Assembly: GCA_016871895.1 (NCBI GenBank)
Contig: VHBO01000006.1
Location: forward strand, 1 to 64,000
Length of the DNA stretch: 64,000 nucleotides
From: Gemmatimonadota bacterium
GTDB lineage: Bacteria; Gemmatimonadota; Gemmatimonadetes; Gemmatimonadales; Gemmatimonadaceae
Direction: 5' to 3'
The notes under the pieces were generated by a model, which was not told the DNA's origin, did no database searches, and saw only the letters and a program-made list of their open reading frames with translations. A program made the translations under genes and the position numbers. Positions 29,800 to 36,213 of the stretch are shown piece by piece. The stretch's first letter is position 1. Every line of letters starts with the position of its first letter.

Positions 29800-29896
29800 C
29801 GATCCTTGTAGACGTTGGCGGTAGTAGTTCAGGCATTCCAGGATAATGAATGGATGAGTCGATTTATCGCGAGTCTCGAGCAGTCATCCGCGTCCT

Positions 29897-30997
29897 TCAG
29901 ACGTTGAAGCGGAAGAGCAGGACGTCGCCATCCTTTACGAGGTATTCCTTCCCCTCGCTGCGGACGGCGCCCTTCTCCTTCGCGCCCTTCCACCCGCCAA
30001 GCGCGACGAAGTCGTCATACGCGACCGTCTCCGCGCGGATGAAGCCGCGCTCGAAGTCGGTGTGGATCACCGCCGCCGCCTTCGGCGCCGTGTCCCCCTG
30101 CTTGATGGTCCAGGCGCGGACCTCCTTCTCGCCGGCCGTAAAATACGTCTGCAGGCCGAGCAGGTGATACCCGGCGCGGATCAGCCGGTCGAGCCCCGCC
30201 GACTCGAGGCCGAGCGAGGCGAGGAAGTCCGCACGGTCCTCCGCCGGGAGCTCGGCGAGCTCCGATTCGATCTTCGCGGAGAAGGTCACCACCTCCGCGG
30301 GCTCGTGGTCTGCGGCGATCGCGGCGCGGAGCGCCGTGACGTACGGACCTTCCGTGCCGGTGAGTTCGGCGTCGGTGACGTTCGCCGCGTACAGGATCGG
30401 CTTGAGGGTCAGCAGTTGGAGGGGCTTGAGGAGCTCGCGCTCCTCCGGCGTGAGGCTCACGTGCCAGAGGGCGCGACCTTCTGCGAGCGGCGCCTGCGCC
30501 TTCTCGAGCGCAGCGGCCTCGGTGGCAGCAGCCTTATCCCCCGTCTTCGCCGCGCGCTTCGCCTTGTCGAGGCGCTTCTCCACGACGGAGAGGTCCGCGA
30601 GGGCGAGCTCGAACTCGATCGTCTCACGGTCGCGGGCCGGGTTCACGCTCCCGTCCACGTGAATCACGTCAGGGTCGTCGAAGCACCGGACGACGTGCAC
30701 GATCGCGTCGGTCTCGCGGATGTTCGAGAGGAAAGCGTTCCCGCGTCCCTCACCCTGCGAGGCCCCCTTCACGAGCCCGGCGATGTCGACGAACTGCACC
30801 GCCGCCGGCACCGTCCGCTCGGGGCGCACGATGTCCGCGAGCCGGTCGAGGCGCGGATCCGGCACGGTCACGACTCCGACGTTCGGGTCGATGGTGCAGA
30901 ACGGGTAGTTCGCGGCCTCGGCCTTGGCGGCGGTGAGGGCGTTGAAGAGGGAGGACTTGCCGACGTTGGGGAGGCCGACGATACCGAGGCTTAACAT
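29897..30997 (-). CDS. ychF: redox-regulated ATPase YchF (Obg-like)
   Basis: 366-residue P-loop ATPase of the OBG family associated with ribosomes and stress. G1 motif GLPNVGKSSLFNAL is near residue 8, and NYPFCTIDPN and DIAGLVKGASQGEG (G3) follow. A helical insert and a C-terminal TGS domain (QTYFTAGEKEVRAW, FERGFIRAETV) complete it. The ATG at 30997 is fixed by the conserved N-terminus, yet no Shine-Dalgarno sequence precedes it. Instead a 7-bp repeat array runs directly into the start codon. Confidence 0.95.
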   Translation of the reverse strand: MLSLGIVGLPNVGKSSLFNALTAAKAEAANYPFCTIDPNVGVVTVPDPRLDRLADIVRPERTVPAAVQFVDIAGLVKGASQGEGRGNAFLSNIRETDAIVHVVRCFDDPDVIHVDGSVNPARDRETIEFELALADLSVVEKRLDKAKRAAKTGDKAAATEAAALEKAQAPLAEGRALWHVSLTPEERELLKPLQLLTLKPILYAANVTDAELTGTEGPYVTALRAAIAADHEPAEVVTFSAKIESELAELPAEDRADFLASLGLESAGLDRLIRAGYHLLGLQTYFTAGEKEVRAWTIKQGDTAPKAAAVIHTDFERGFIRAETVAYDDFVALGGWKGAKEKGAVRSEGKEYLVKDGDVLLFRFNV

Positions 30998-31063
30998 CAG
31001 GGAACAGGGGTCAGGGGTCAGGTATCAGACATCAGGTGACAGGTCTCAGGTGCTAGGGTACAG
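30998..31063 (-). repeat. tandem heptamer array, CTGANNN type (about 9 copies)
   Basis: Read on the minus strand this is nine consecutive 7-mers: CTGTACC, CTAGCAC, CTGAGAC, CTGTCAC, CTGATGT, CTGATAC, CTGACCC, CTGACCC, CTGTTCC, then CTG abutting the ATG of ychF. Period 7 is strict although the last three bases vary. It fills the 5' side of the gap between ychF and the four-helix-bundle gene. Related arrays lie at 31564-31584, 33681-33715 and 35096-35123. Confidence 0.8.
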
Positions 31064-31167
31064 CGGTTAATAGCCGAGAGTGTCGGTACCGATTCTGTCG
31101 GAAGATAAGGGAACTCGATGGAAGGAATCGACGATGATGCTCGCCGGCGCGGGTGCATCCTCCTCGC

Positions 31168-31581
31168 ATGGCATCCTTCCGAAAGCTCGCGGTCTGGGAA
31201 AAGGCCCACACCCTCACGCTGCTGACGTATCGCCTGGCCGAGGAACGACTGGTCCGACGCCACCCCGAGCTCGCCTCGCAGCTCACCCGAGCCGTCGCTT
31301 CGATCCCCGCGAACATCGCTGAAGGCCTCGCGCACCGGAGCGATGCGCAACTCAATCGCTTCCTCTCCATCGCGTATGCATCGGCACAGGAGGCGGACTA
31401 TCACTTCCTGCTCGCCAAAGATCTCGGAGTCATCCCCGTCACCGACTATGCCCATCTCGAGGCGCGCCTGACCGAGGTGCGTCAGATGCTCTCGGGACTA
31501 CGGCGGCGCGTCCAAGCTCGCGTCCGAGTCAAAGGAAAAAGGGGAGGCCGAACGGCCTCCCCTCTGACCCCTCTCACCTGA
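31168..31581 (+). CDS. four-helix-bundle protein (23S rRNA-intervening-sequence / S23 type)
   Basis: 137 residues from ATG 31168. [25 protein letters not shown], then [15 protein letters not shown] and [23 protein letters not shown] match the small four-helix-bundle family named after proteins in 23S rRNA intervening sequences (related to Avd of diversity-generating retroelements). Function is unknown in most lineages. The gene points against both neighbours. Its final 17 or so residues ([16 protein letters not shown]) are encoded by the hppA terminator hairpin and by a heptamer array, so the natural protein end may be recent. Heptamer arrays bracket the gene in opposite orientations. The family call is firm, the role open. 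Confidence 0.85.
31541..31562 (-). terminator. rho-independent terminator of hppA, inside the four-helix gene's 3' end
   Basis: GGGGAGGCC (31541-31549) pairs perfectly with GGCCTCCCC (31554-31562) around a GAAC loop. On the minus strand it is followed by TTTTTCCTTT, a classical U-tract, 28 bp past the hppA stop. It lies within the last codons of the opposing four-helix-bundle gene. Confidence 0.8.
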
Positions 31582-31584
31582 CCC
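31564..31584 (+). repeat. short heptamer array, CTGACCC type (3 copies)
   Basis: CTGACCC, CTCTCAC, CTGACCC in tandem on the plus strand. This is the reverse orientation of the array on the other side of the four-helix-bundle gene, and the unit CTGACCC is shared exactly. It includes the end of that gene and stops 6 bp before the hppA stop codon. Confidence 0.65.
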
Positions 31585-31590
31585 CTCGGC

Positions 31591-33648
<2,058 letters not shown>

Positions 33649-33680
33649 GGGAGGGAGGGGAGGGGAAAGGGGGACTACGG

Positions 33681-33715
33681 ATGAAAGAAGAAAGCTGAAT
33701 GCTGCAAGCTGAAAG
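33681..33715 (+). repeat. tandem heptamer array, CTGAAAG type (5 copies)
   Basis: ATGAAAG, AAGAAAG, CTGAATG, CTGCAAG, CTGAAAG in strict 7-bp phase, 33 bp upstream of the hppA start. It is A-rich compared with the other arrays but shares the CTGA core. It lies in the 111-bp gap between pth and hppA. Confidence 0.7.
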
Positions 33716-33727
33716 TTCGACTGCGAT

Positions 33728-33764
33728 GGTGACACGCGACGGGCGATAACGCCCGACCGTCACC
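33728..33764 (-). terminator. two-tier hairpin at the end of pth
   Basis: Outer stem GGTGAC/GTCACC (33728-33733 with 33759-33764) and inner stem CGGGCG/CGCCCG (33740-33745 with 33750-33755, loop ATAA). It includes the pth stop codon. There is no T-tract, so termination is plausible but not certain. Confidence 0.5.
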
Positions 33765-34335
33765 GATTGAACGCGTTCATCACCGGGAGGATGCCGTCGG
33801 CGGTCCACTGCCGCAGCGCCTGTTCCAGCGTCGGGAAGAGGGCCCGCACGTCGGCGGCCTCCTGCTTCCCGAAGTCCCCGAGCACGTAGTCAGCGAGGTC
33901 GCCGATGCGGCGCTGGGGGTCGTTCGGTCCGACGCCGATGCGGAGTCGGGCGTAGTCCTGGCCGCCGAGCGCCTGCTCAATGCTCTTCAGCCCGTTGTGC
34001 CCGCCGGCGGAGCCCTTCGCTCGGAAGCGGAAGGCGCCCACCGGCAACTGCACCTCGTCGGAGATGACCATCAGGTCGGCGACTGCGGCCCAGAACGGTC
34101 GCCGGAGCCAGGGCTTGAGGACCGCCCCGGAGAGGTTCATGAACGTCAGCGGCTTCACGAGCCGCACCTTCACGGCGCCGACGGTGCCCGACGCGGTCAT
34201 CGCCTCGCCGTCCTTCCGCCAGCCGTCGCATCGCCACGCCTCGGCGAGGTGGTCGACGATCCACCACCCCACGTTGTGCCGCGTGTCGACGTACGCCGCG
34301 CCGGGATTGCCGAGCCCGAGGATGACTTTCATCAT
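33760..34335 (-). CDS. pth: peptidyl-tRNA hydrolase
   Basis: 191-residue enzyme that releases peptides from stalled peptidyl-tRNA. LGLGNPGAAYVDTRHNVGW contains the catalytic histidine; PLTFMNLSG, VISDEVQLPVGAFRFR (catalytic aspartate) and GSAGGHNGLKSIEQAL follow. It lies 26 bp downstream of rplY in the common L25-Pth pairing, so the two probably share a transcript. Confidence 0.95.
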   Translation of the reverse strand: MMKVILGLGNPGAAYVDTRHNVGWWIVDHLAEAWRCDGWRKDGEAMTASGTVGAVKVRLVKPLTFMNLSGAVLKPWLRRPFWAAVADLMVISDEVQLPVGAFRFRAKGSAGGHNGLKSIEQALGGQDYARLRIGVGPNDPQRRIGDLADYVLGDFGKQEAADVRALFPTLEQALRQWTADGILPVMNAFNR

Positions 34336-34361
34336 CGCGCTCGGCGCCCCCGACGTCGGGC

Positions 34362-35009
34362 TTACTTCGCCTCGGCCGACTCGTCGGCCTTCGCCTTGCG
34401 GATGAGCTCGGGCTCGCCCGCGCCCGCCTCACCGGCTGCCGGCTCGGCCTCGACGCGCGGCGCGGCGCAGACGCAGACCGTCGCGTCGGGCGTCGAGTGG
34501 AGCGACACGCCGGCCGGGAGCGGGACCTCGCCGGCGTGGATCGACTGCCCGATGCCGAGCGCCGTCACGTCGAGGGAGATGTGGCCCGGGATGTTCGACG
34601 GGTCGCAGGAGACCTCGAGCTCGTGGAGGACCTGGTCGAGGAGGCCACCGCCGAGGCGCACGCCCTCGGGCGTCCCGGTGAAGTGGATCGGGACGCGCAC
34701 CGTCACCTTCTCGCCGGCGACGAGTTCCTGGAAGTCGACGTGCACGATCTGCTTCTTGAACGGGTGGCGCTGGATCTCGCGGATGAGCGTGTTGCTCGTC
34801 TTGCCGTCGATATCGAGGGCGATCACGGTGCTCTGGTACGGGTGCTTCTCGAGGAGGAGCTGGAGCTTGTGGTGATCAAGCGCGATCGGCTGCGGCTGCC
34901 GGGCGTGACCGTAGATGACGGCGGGCACCTGACCGGCGGCGCGGAGCTTACGGGCGACGCCCTTGCCGGTGGTGTCGCGGCTGGTGGCGGAGAACGGAAC
35001 AGTCGACAT
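34362..35009 (-). CDS. rplY: 50S ribosomal protein L25/general stress protein Ctc
   Basis: 215 residues: an N-terminal 5S-rRNA-binding L25 domain (GVARKLRAAGQVPAVIYG, HPFKKQIVHVDFQEL) plus a C-terminal TL5/CTC domain (VPIHFTGTPEGVRLGGGL, IPGHISLDVTALGIGQSIH). The end is Ala/Glu-rich (EAEPAAGEAGAGEPE). Long CTC-type form rather than the short E. coli L25. Located between prs and pth, all on the minus strand. Confidence 0.93.
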   Translation of the reverse strand: MSTVPFSATSRDTTGKGVARKLRAAGQVPAVIYGHARQPQPIALDHHKLQLLLEKHPYQSTVIALDIDGKTSNTLIREIQRHPFKKQIVHVDFQELVAGEKVTVRVPIHFTGTPEGVRLGGGLLDQVLHELEVSCDPSNIPGHISLDVTALGIGQSIHAGEVPLPAGVSLHSTPDATVCVCAAPRVEAEPAAGEAGAGEPELIRKAKADESAEAK

Positions 35010-35095
35010 CGGAACTACCTCGTGAGATTCGGCGCGCTACGTGGGTGCCCGGGAGATCCGGCCCAGCGTCGCGCCAAGGGAAACGGGACGAACAT

Positions 35096-35123
35096 CTGCT
35101 ACCTGCTACCTGACACCTGCCTC
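35096..35123 (+). repeat. tandem heptamer array, CTGNYAC type (4 copies)
   Basis: CTGCTAC, CTGCTAC, CTGACAC, CTGCCTC in 7-bp phase on the plus strand. The last unit overlaps the prs stop codon (35122-35124). It sits in the 112-bp gap between prs and rplY, whose remainder shows nothing recognisable. Confidence 0.7.
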
Positions 35124-36075
35124 AATCGAACAGCGAACTCACCGACTGGTCCGCGTGGGTGAAACGGATCGCCTTCGCCAGCAGATCGCCGACAGAGAGG
35201 ATCGCCAGCGTCGGGAAGCGCTTGTGCTCCGGGGTCGCGAGGGAATCGGTGATCGCGACCTCGGTGATCGGCGCGTCACGGAGCCGCTCGACGGCGGGGC
35301 CGCTGAGGAGTCCGTGCGTCGCGCAGACGTAGACGTCGCGGGCGCCGAGCTTCTTGAGCGCCCGCGCGCCCTCGCTGACGGTCCCGGCGGTGTCGATCAT
35401 ATCGTCCACCAACAGGCAATCGCGCCCCTCCACATCACCCACGACGTTCACCACCTCGGCGACGTTCGCCGCGGGGCGCCGCTTGTCGATGATTGCGAGG
35501 GAGGCGTTCAGGCGCTTGGCGAAGCCACGGGCCATCTTCGCCGCGCCGACATCCGGGGCGACGACGACCGGGTCGGTCAGGTTCTTCTTGCGATAGTGCG
35601 CGGTGAACACCGGCGCCGCGTACAGGTGGTCGACGGGGATGTCGAAGAACCCCTGCAGCTGATGCTGATGGAAATCGAGGCCGAGGACCCGGTCGGCGCC
35701 CGCGCGCATGATCATGTTCGCGACGAGCTTGGCGCCGATCGCGACCCGGGGCTGGTCCTTCCGGTCCTGCCGCGCGTACCCGTAGTACGGCATCACGACG
35801 GTGATGCGCGCCGCGGAGGCGCGCTGAGCGGCATCGATGAGGAGCAGGAGCTCCATCAGGTTGTCCGCCGGCGGGTTCGTCGGCTGGACGATGAAGACGT
35901 CGGCGCCGCGGACATTCTCGTCAAGCCGCACGAAGACCTCGCCGTCCGCGAAGCGCGTCACGGTGGTCTTGCAGAGGTCGATGCCCAGCGACGCGGCGAT
36001 CCCCTCCGCCAACGGCTGATTCGCCGTGCCGGTGAGGATCCGGATGCCGCGGATGGGGACTGAGAGGCCGTCCAT
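35122..36075 (-). CDS. prs: ribose-phosphate pyrophosphokinase
   Basis: 317 residues. Makes PRPP from ribose 5-phosphate and ATP for purine, pyrimidine, His and Trp synthesis. RFADGEVFVRLDENVRG, PYYGYARQDRKD, the LDFHQHQLQGFF loop, VVVAPDVGAAKMA and the PRPP-binding loop LLVDDMIDTAGT are all intact. Class I bacterial enzyme by length. tRNA-Gln and ispE lie upstream in the same direction (an ispE-tRNA-prs-rplY-pth order common in bacteria). Confidence 0.96.
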   Translation of the reverse strand: MDGLSVPIRGIRILTGTANQPLAEGIAASLGIDLCKTTVTRFADGEVFVRLDENVRGADVFIVQPTNPPADNLMELLLLIDAAQRASAARITVVMPYYGYARQDRKDQPRVAIGAKLVANMIMRAGADRVLGLDFHQHQLQGFFDIPVDHLYAAPVFTAHYRKKNLTDPVVVAPDVGAAKMARGFAKRLNASLAIIDKRRPAANVAEVVNVVGDVEGRDCLLVDDMIDTAGTVSEGARALKKLGARDVYVCATHGLLSGPAVERLRDAPITEVAITDSLATPEHKRFPTLAILSVGDLLAKAIRFTHADQSVSSLFD

Positions 36076-36213
36076 GAGCGTGGTCGCCGCGCCGAGGTCA
36101 GGGAGGGAACCGAAAGCCCCGAAAGATAGGCGGGACCGGAGTCGGACGGCAGGGGGGCGCGGTCACGCAAGTGCCGATGGCGCCCGCAGTTGCCCCGCAG
36201 CGGCCCTCTCGGA

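Follow-up and report, generated by a model that had tools for sequence, protein, structure and literature searches.

Heptamer arrays at gene boundaries in a Gemmatimonadota genome as probable arms of a small mobile element with an S23 gene

In a 64,000-nucleotide stretch of the Gemmatimonadota contig VHBO01000006.1 (positions 1 to 64,000 of the forward strand, referred to here as the window), four arrays of seven-base units lie within about 4.1 kb at the ends of genes, which raises the question of what these arrays are. An earlier note had described them as a tandem-repeat family with a CTGA core, tied to these gene boundaries. In this study, all four arrays were present in the sequence, and that reading was upheld in part; many arrays of this kind proved to be inverted pairs of arms, one of them around a gene for an S23 protein (PF05635) that had been overlooked within the very region described. 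The arrays are probably the arms, or the leftover (solo) arms, of a small mobile element with the S23 gene as its sole gene. Behind this reading stand the matched inverted flanks of S23 genes, a repeat unit and period bound to the S23 lineage, dispersed arrays of the S23-arm unit, presence or absence of whole elements at related sites, and purifying selection on S23. The features concerned are the following:

30994..31063, minus strand: putative upstream arm of the S23 element, purine-rich; on the minus strand it reads CTGAYNC about 8-9 times, and the last unit, CTGATGT, holds the ychF start codon
31153..31581, plus strand: S23 / four-helix bundle gene (PF05635 E 7e-28, TIGR02436 98 bits; domain 31180-31497)
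31541..31562, no strand assigned: hairpin GGGGAGGCC-GAAC-GGCCTCCCC within the element, adjoining the downstream arm; an A-run precedes it on the plus strand
31564..31584, plus strand: putative downstream pyrimidine-rich arm of the S23 element, CTGACCC CTCTCAC CTGACCC, the inverted counterpart of the upstream arm
33681..33715, plus strand: probable solo array in the pth-hppA interval, of a second family (type B, CTGAARG)
35096..35123, plus strand: probable solo type A array, CTGCTAC CTGCTAC CTGACAC CTGCCTC, at the prs stop

The S23 gene sits between the arrays 30994-31063 and 31564-31584, which form inverted, outward-pointing flanks, and it was the only PF05635 gene found in the host genome. 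Its product belongs to the S23 family, scoring 97 bits against PF05635 (cut-off 33.8) and above the TIGR02436 cut-off of 24 bits, and its AlphaFold model (pLDDT 97) matched the solved S23 proteins 2GSC and 2RLD. The model also matched Avd, the accessory protein of diversity-generating retroelements (DGRs; 4DWL and 8UB7), with TM 0.80-0.83 and a Foldseek E of about 0.2; the Avd profile gave a weak match below its cut-off for the S23 of a Trichormus locus (L320) and none for the S23 of the window. S23 is not known to have a catalytic site. A phage origin was considered and set aside, since one query of a phage collection returned no S23 relative. According to PMC4990558, which cites Lin 2006, a solved S23 relative is a pentamer of four-helix bundles.

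Matched inverted arms are a widespread property of S23 genes. Loci were taken from 99 genomes that span the genus, the family and the order (the own genome included; 79 with PF05635), which supplied 30 loci and 60 further loci, from a named set of 80 of 565 PF05635 loci of many phyla, and from 12 of 25 PF05635 matches on plasmids, chosen by the authors and all cyanobacterial. The matched-arm survey took 180 of these 182 loci, leaving out L122 and L253 with less than 60 bp of flank. The same unit stood on both sides in inverted order, with periods of 7-10, at 96 of the 180 loci (24/30, 38/79, 24/59 and 10/12 by set, the last being the cyanobacterial plasmids), compared with 0 of 201 displaced placements, which covered the first two of these sets (54 and 147 placements). 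At least one strong arm was found at 126/180 loci and at 14/201 control placements. L075 and L272 are one locus, L091 and L092 are identical, and L326 is L308 again and was removed by hand; with duplicates removed and L325 (one strong arm, no pair) added, the counts became 96/179 for pairs and 126/179 for arms. In the named set, a lag-7 self-match of at least 20/28 was present within 250 bp of 32/79 genes upstream and 36/78 downstream, and in 0/73 and 5/75 of the segments 1 kb away; lag 14, the double of 7, gave 18/79 and 18/78, lags 8-10 gave few, and lags 4-6 and 11-13 almost nothing. Period 7 was dominant, and 8, 9 and 10 also occurred. Moreover, the period followed the S23 tree, with 12 changes against a shuffled mean of 22 (0/300 shuffles as low), on a tree weakly resolved with few columns and many open forks. 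By a laxer count, the arms of period-7 loci held 4 or 5 units in 55 and 44 of 160 arms (99/160). An exact number of five units per arm, one for each pentamer subunit, was not established, as the peak of 58/96 period-7 arms was obtained with a detection window that favours 5. A universal outer GCAG/CTGC end was likewise rejected as a general feature: G011 and G009 showed it strongly, G015 moderately, G000 and G016 weakly and G004 not at all.

The host genome carries many more arrays than the window. That such runs exceed chance, which the earlier note had made the test of its case, held genome-wide: three consecutive CTGANNN units occurred 34 times forward and 23 times in reverse in the 2.28-Mb genome (57 matches, overlaps counted), and the reversed pattern gave 0. 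In the 22 stretches around these matches and in the window, 56 arrays were counted; they fall into two families, with 41 arrays (261 units) of type A, CTGAYNC, and 15 (93 units) of type B, CTGAARG. The CTGA core named by the earlier note does not define the arrays, for other members of the genus have other heptamers, partly at the same sites, and periods of 8-10 occur in other lineages; within the window, the array at 33681 falls in type B. Position 4 of the unit was A in only about 70%, position 6 was variable and position 7 (C or G) was about 90% fixed, with a detector that favoured unit positions 1-4. Neighbouring opposite arms of one family, at most 700 bp apart, stood purine-rich then pyrimidine-rich in 17/17 cases and reversed in 0, a single inverted order such as is expected of the ends of a transposon or a miniature inverted-repeat transposable element. 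The pair in the window is outside these 17 because its short downstream arm fell under the threshold. The unit number of the type A arrays peaked at 7 (9/41). When six of the 17 arm pairs were folded, five beat at least 199/200 shuffles and all beat at least 197/200, with z from -2.6 to -8.0; the arms can therefore form long hairpins, and a target recognised in them could be a DNA or an RNA hairpin. The whole element of the window folded no better than shuffles (z -1.5; 8/100 as good), and the arm ends pair in that fold.

Within the window, the array 30994-31063 (CTGACCC, CTGATAC and CTGATGT units) is far beyond chance, with one 4-unit stretch at 16/16 core bases and four more at 15/16; at least 13/16 core matches were reached 8 times in the 64-kb window and 0-1 times in each of ten Markov-simulated 64-kb sequences. 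The arrays 33681-33715 and 35096-35123, with 13/16 core bases, are marginal when judged singly, and 31564-31584, with 10/12, is at chance level by itself (1-5 such per simulated sequence) and gains weight only from its context. A core-match scan found no further site in the window that scores as high as the four arrays, so their restriction to a few spots, as first described, was borne out.

The repeat unit is tied to the S23 lineage. The two arms of one locus agreed on average at 6.0 of 7 positions (75 loci), compared with 3.7 between genomes, and the agreement was at least 6/7 in 57/75 loci compared with 4% for arms from different genomes. Paralogues within one genome shared units in only 2/35 pairs. 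S23 proteins at least 60% identical in different genomes shared units in 24-45% of pairs, and those less than 50% identical in 2-3%; unit similarity rose with S23 identity (Mantel r 0.30, 0/1000 permutations) among the 106/170 loci that were kept after those with stops in the domain, with no arm at 20/28 or with arms of unlike period had been left out. At the ychF-hppA place, readable in 14/17 genomes of the genus, 11 genomes have S23 (12 loci), and G003, G010 and G013 lack it. The arm unit there is CTGACCC in the genome studied and CATCTCC, CATCTTA, ACTCACR, GTCTCAM, CGTCTTC or CCTTCAG in other members of the genus. The automated arm match reached at least 6/7 in 9/12 of these loci; the failing ones were one G007 copy, G005 and the locus of the window, the last because its downstream arm is short and degenerate. 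Two diverged ychF-S23-hppA copies lie in the one bin G007 (C49 and C131; L174 and L179), with YchF 91% identical, and possibly represent two strains.

Furthermore, in several genomes the unit found at the S23 arms also occurs in dispersed arrays. Three S23-arm patterns were searched in the 17 genus genomes (units from G007, G012/G014 and G002 being left out). ACTCAYR in three units gave 27 matches in G015 and GTCTCAM 12 in G004, each with none in the other 16 genomes; CATCTYM gave 27 in G016, 20 in G009, 12 in G011, 4 each in G001 and G006, and single matches in G004 and G014. The S23-arm unit of Geobacter sp. AOG1 had 17 matches in its own genome, most of them at S23 arms with two sites outside, and a single match in a set of 19 other genomes, and that of Candidatus Chloroploca had 15 matches on one contig, several near S23, and 1 elsewhere. 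CTGA counts also differed between 8 genomes with a CTGA-type S23 and 23 without (p 0.002; not all S23 loci of these genomes were included), with exceptions on both sides, as G018, G088, G053 and G026 without a CTGA-type S23 reached 45-80 and two genomes with one had only 3. The control pattern AGTCNNN in three units (GACT on the other strand) was very abundant in G032 (462, the maximum), G022, G079, G082, G043 and G033, where it represents other array families; the S23 unit TAGTCAC of G022 fits the counts of that genome.

The arrays adjoin coding boundaries, as the earlier note had said: in addition to the ychF start codon within the last upstream unit, the array 31564-31584 ends 6 bp from the hppA stop, and the array 35096-35123 and the prs stop overlap by 2 bp. 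The array 33681-33715 would be coding only if hppA started at the far-upstream GTG (33735), whose frame (33646-33735) would cross it; hppA more likely starts at the ATG at 33648, and the array then lies between pth and this ATG. The hairpin 31541-31562 is, from its sequence, probably the hppA terminator. A similar hairpin is present in most S23-bearing loci of the genus, and terminator-like hairpins lie inside several array pairs, beside S23 in the genus and in the gene-less G011 pair L213 (about 2465-2490). No known RNA family reached its gathering score in Rfam for 29800-36100.

The same boundaries carry different units in different species. Between species of the genus, 15/20 array sites with different units mapped at most 150 bp from an array of the other species, compared with 13% of random positions (mappings were required to have 800 bp or more aligned and to lie within a map distance of 400; a null restricted to intergenic positions would exceed 13%), and 2/3 same-unit mappings coincided. 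The 35096 site, for example, holds CTGACAC-type units here, GTCTCAM in the relative G004 and CATCTYM in G016. Empty sites were also seen; an array pair of about 150 bp in G011, for instance, corresponds to a 15-bp gap in the own genome (L213 and L050). Either the arrays are rewritten in place, or new elements reuse the same boundaries repeatedly. The S23 and YchF trees of the ychF-hppA loci disagree, each with 5/9 inner branches unresolved, so that local replacement by transfer is possible; the alternative is that S23 at the ychF site was vertically inherited with its arms rewritten in place.

In cyanobacterial plasmids, S23 elements are present or absent within DNA that otherwise aligns: the flanks of such pairs are 86-99% identical, and the S23 insertions that separate them measure about 430-510 bp. 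Between Trichormus L320 and Nostoc linckia L327, with flanks 97-99% identical, the difference is a 428-bp insertion with GTAAT on both sides; five further records match this site at the short (empty) length, and Nostoc C052 has a truncated S23 remnant there. Other presence/absence pairs, with flanks 86-96% identical, were L318/L334/L335, L324/L330 (between cas10 and cmr3), L323/L331 and L322/L342. In the related plasmid L333, the L323 site holds an array with a different unit and lacks an annotated gene. Where L316 has cas6-S23-cas4, Dolichospermum, whose flanks are 99% identical, carries an inverted repeat of another kind instead of S23. This repeat in Dolichospermum L341 reads GTAGGTTGGGTT...AACCCAACCTAC and lies at the cas6-cas4 junction, which in Anabaena sp. 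90 is occupied by an S23 element. In addition, one element type (416-419 bp, 78-82% identity) was found at three unrelated sites (L320, L322 and L336/L338), with alignments that stop with the arrays. Its S23 showed a ratio of nonsynonymous to synonymous divergence (dN/dS) of 0.10-0.15 between diverged copies, a rough value with synonymous distances near 1; such purifying selection indicates that the S23 protein matters. The near-identical pairs L320/L329 and L336/L338 gave 0.86 and 0, on very few changes.

On these observations, a full element of about 420-590 bp would comprise, in order, about 4-8 short tandem units in a purine-rich array, the S23 gene and an inverted pyrimidine-rich array of the same unit. 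Arm pairs without a gene and with a short spacer would be miniature derivatives scattered at gene boundaries. We infer that S23 recognises the arms, because its solved relative is pentameric, the period-7 arms mostly have 4-5 units, and the units combine a fixed core with variable bases; one unit per subunit may be recognised in a single-stranded or hairpin arm of DNA or RNA. The layout of the S23 unit is reminiscent of TRAP, a protein ring that holds on to a short core within every repeat of its target. The arm would be the target of S23 and perhaps also its translational control site. The last upstream-arm unit GGAGTCA occupies the ribosome-binding-site position in L320, L322, L336 and L338, and a protein that occupies the arm could thus repress its own synthesis. 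S23 might then guide the spread of the element jointly with a host enzyme. RVT_1 (PF00078) was found in 1/17 genus genomes (G006, 77% complete), in 0/11 at a completeness of at least 90% and not in the genome of the window, and the Y1 transposase (PF01797) in 0/17, in an enzyme search that covered these two families. As no enzyme is encoded in the element, and reverse transcriptase and Y1 are missing in 16/17 and 17/17 genomes, our guess is that a general host activity (replication, repair or recombination) executes the mobilisation.

Several results weigh against the interpretation as a mobile element. No catalytic protein was found to be encoded in the element or linked to S23 elements. A clear target duplication (5-bp GTAAT) was seen in 1/6 filled/empty comparisons (L320, L318, L324, L323, L322 and L321), and the other five had small deletions or diverged junctions; a difference at a single site may reflect gain or loss in either direction. 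No strong arm was found at 54/180 S23 loci, and S23 in G005 has no visible arms and in G020 mostly none; some arm-less loci may be old or domesticated copies. Conversely, arrays occur where no S23 was found, in G003 (19 matches), G013 (6; 100% complete) and G008 (58; incomplete), as well as in the incomplete G001 and G006 with 4 CATCTYM arrays each, and the type B arrays of the own genome have no S23 partner. The downstream arm of the window itself is weak and below the automated detection thresholds. Finally, the placement at gene boundaries may reflect survival rather than targeting.

Among the other explanations, it is conceivable, though we consider it unlikely, that the dispersed arrays serve a global regulator as binding sites and are kept by selection, the regulator possibly being S23 acting in trans on the leaders and tails of mRNAs, and that the S23 arms are autoregulatory. 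The upstream arm directly precedes the S23 start, array sites are often common to species (the 15/20 given above), and PMC2700814 annotates paired heptamer arrays (MTYCTGA) of Geobacter metallireducens as putative global regulator sites. However, the units differ wholly between species at the same sites, a change that point mutation could hardly bring about at dozens of selected sites, and whole elements are inserted or lost at the plasmid sites with nearly identical flanks. A role as bidirectional terminators or mRNA-stabilising hairpins that happen to consist of heptamers would agree with the strong folding of the arm pairs and with terminator-like hairpins in some spacers, and is nevertheless improbable, as it leaves the S23 gene, the coupling of unit and lineage, and the presence/absence unexplained, and the complete element of the window shows no folding advantage over shuffles.

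It is very improbable that S23 acts as Avd in a retroelement-like process by which a reverse transcriptase rewrites the arrays from the template of the S23 arm. The modelled S23 does appear to have the Avd fold at the scores given above, units change in concert within a genome, and a resemblance of PF05635 to Avd is noted in PMC10053308; against this stands the near absence of RVT_1 from the genus, for which rewriting of the DGR or telomerase type was rejected, short of an unrecognised polymerase in that role, as was a RAYT as mobiliser given the Y1 result. Even less credence is due to heptamer microsatellites grown by slippage, with S23 nearby by chance or inserted into them: PMC4692102 reports heptamers to be over-represented in bacterial genomes and suggests slippage, and PMC4990558 reports that heptamer copy number varies upstream of the Coxiella S23 open reading frame (ORF), but neither the strict inverted order nor the matching of arms is expected from slippage, no displaced control had a matched pair, and the unit follows the S23 lineage. 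Slippage would produce head-to-tail arrays with no preferred mate, and the arms here are matched and inverted, yet 22/56 arrays of the own genome are unpaired.

The mobile element with S23 as its sole gene, which remains the preferred interpretation, has points of contact with several known systems. Among them are the 23S rRNA intervening sequences (IVSs) of Coxiella, Leptospira and Brucella, which are cut out by RNase III and, like the element of the window, are small and have an S23 ORF with terminal inverted repeats. According to PMC4990558, the Coxiella IVS has 428 nt and is termed selfish; its terminal inverted repeats form a stem, and its S23 ORF is directly preceded by 2-3 tandem heptamers that vary among strains. 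The element of the window differs in lying between ychF and hppA and not inside a 23S rRNA gene, and the S23 elements described here have matched tandem arrays as both arms and dispersed gene-less relatives. REPIN-RAYT systems have a lineage-specific repeat sequence and placement at gene boundaries. They resemble the present case in having one resident gene, with S23 in the place of RAYT, flanked by repeats dispersed genome-wide as short inverted pairs, and differ in that the genus has no Y1 transposase in its 17 genomes and the repeats here are tandem 7-10-mers, not REP palindromes. RAYT is a single-copy, vertically inherited gene and REPINs are non-autonomous (PMC8049555); S23 is also single-copy here, but many relatives hold several. 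DGRs share the Avd fold with S23 (TM as above), whereas 16/17 genus genomes, including that of the window, have no reverse transcriptase.

Other period-7 arrays have also been described. Short tandemly repeated repetitive sequences (STRRs) of cyanobacteria are heptamers described as repeats alone, and matched arms were found at 10/12 cyanobacterial plasmid S23 genes in this study. The GGGAATC arrays of Xanthomonas and the GGGGA(T/C)T arrays of Nostoc are likewise intergenic with period 7, and 2GSC, one of the solved S23 proteins, comes from X. campestris. The Xanthomonas arrays form 70-75 inverted pairs, mostly 0-50 bp from ORFs and unexplained, according to PMC4692102, whose text draws no link to S23 and never mentions XCC0516. 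In Geobacter, 15/16 class 3 sites are five tandem heptamers MTYCTGA, mostly paired, according to PMC2700814; these were read as regulator sites, and the S23 arms of Geobacter sp. AOG1 are TCCGAGT/GTCCCGA, with the two further sites mentioned above. No report that joins S23 genes and flanking arrays as one system was found in listings of the open-access literature (subscription papers and preprints lie outside them), the paper on the Coxiella IVS being the nearest. The S23-arm system is not an IVS (outside rRNA), not a REPIN-RAYT system (no transposase) and not a DGR (no reverse transcriptase); counting the rRNA IVSs as the same kind would make it a new and far wider variant.

S23 elements lie between CRISPR genes in the cyanobacterial plasmids L316, L317 and L324 (cas6-S23-cas4 and cas10-S23-cmr3), and related plasmids have S23-free versions. 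An association of '23S rRNA IVP' with CRISPR loci is reported in PMC10910872. Since S23 elements stand between cas genes and are missing there in related plasmids, our data suggest that this association is a hitch-hiking of elements inserted between cas genes.

In a wider and more tentative proposal, which we hold possible with the balance somewhat against it, S23 proteins would be sequence-reading rings. Every lineage would recognise a particular unit of 7-10 nt, and arms of about 30-35 nt would offer roughly one unit to each subunit; after a change of specificity, arrays all over the genome would give way, site by site, to the new unit. Such a widespread transposase-less mobile system with a protein-repeat code would cover the 23S rRNA IVSs, which look like rRNA-inserted relatives of S23 elements, and the arrays of Xanthomonas, Nostoc and Geobacter. 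One explanation would then serve both for the function of the S23 / four-helix-bundle family, whose structures date from 2006 and 2007 and came with no function, and for the heptamer arrays of these three genera. If true, a class of mobile elements would exist in which no gene for a nuclease, a transposase or a polymerase can be recognised. For many S23 genes the predicted target stands right beside the gene, and natural relatives with changed units exist.

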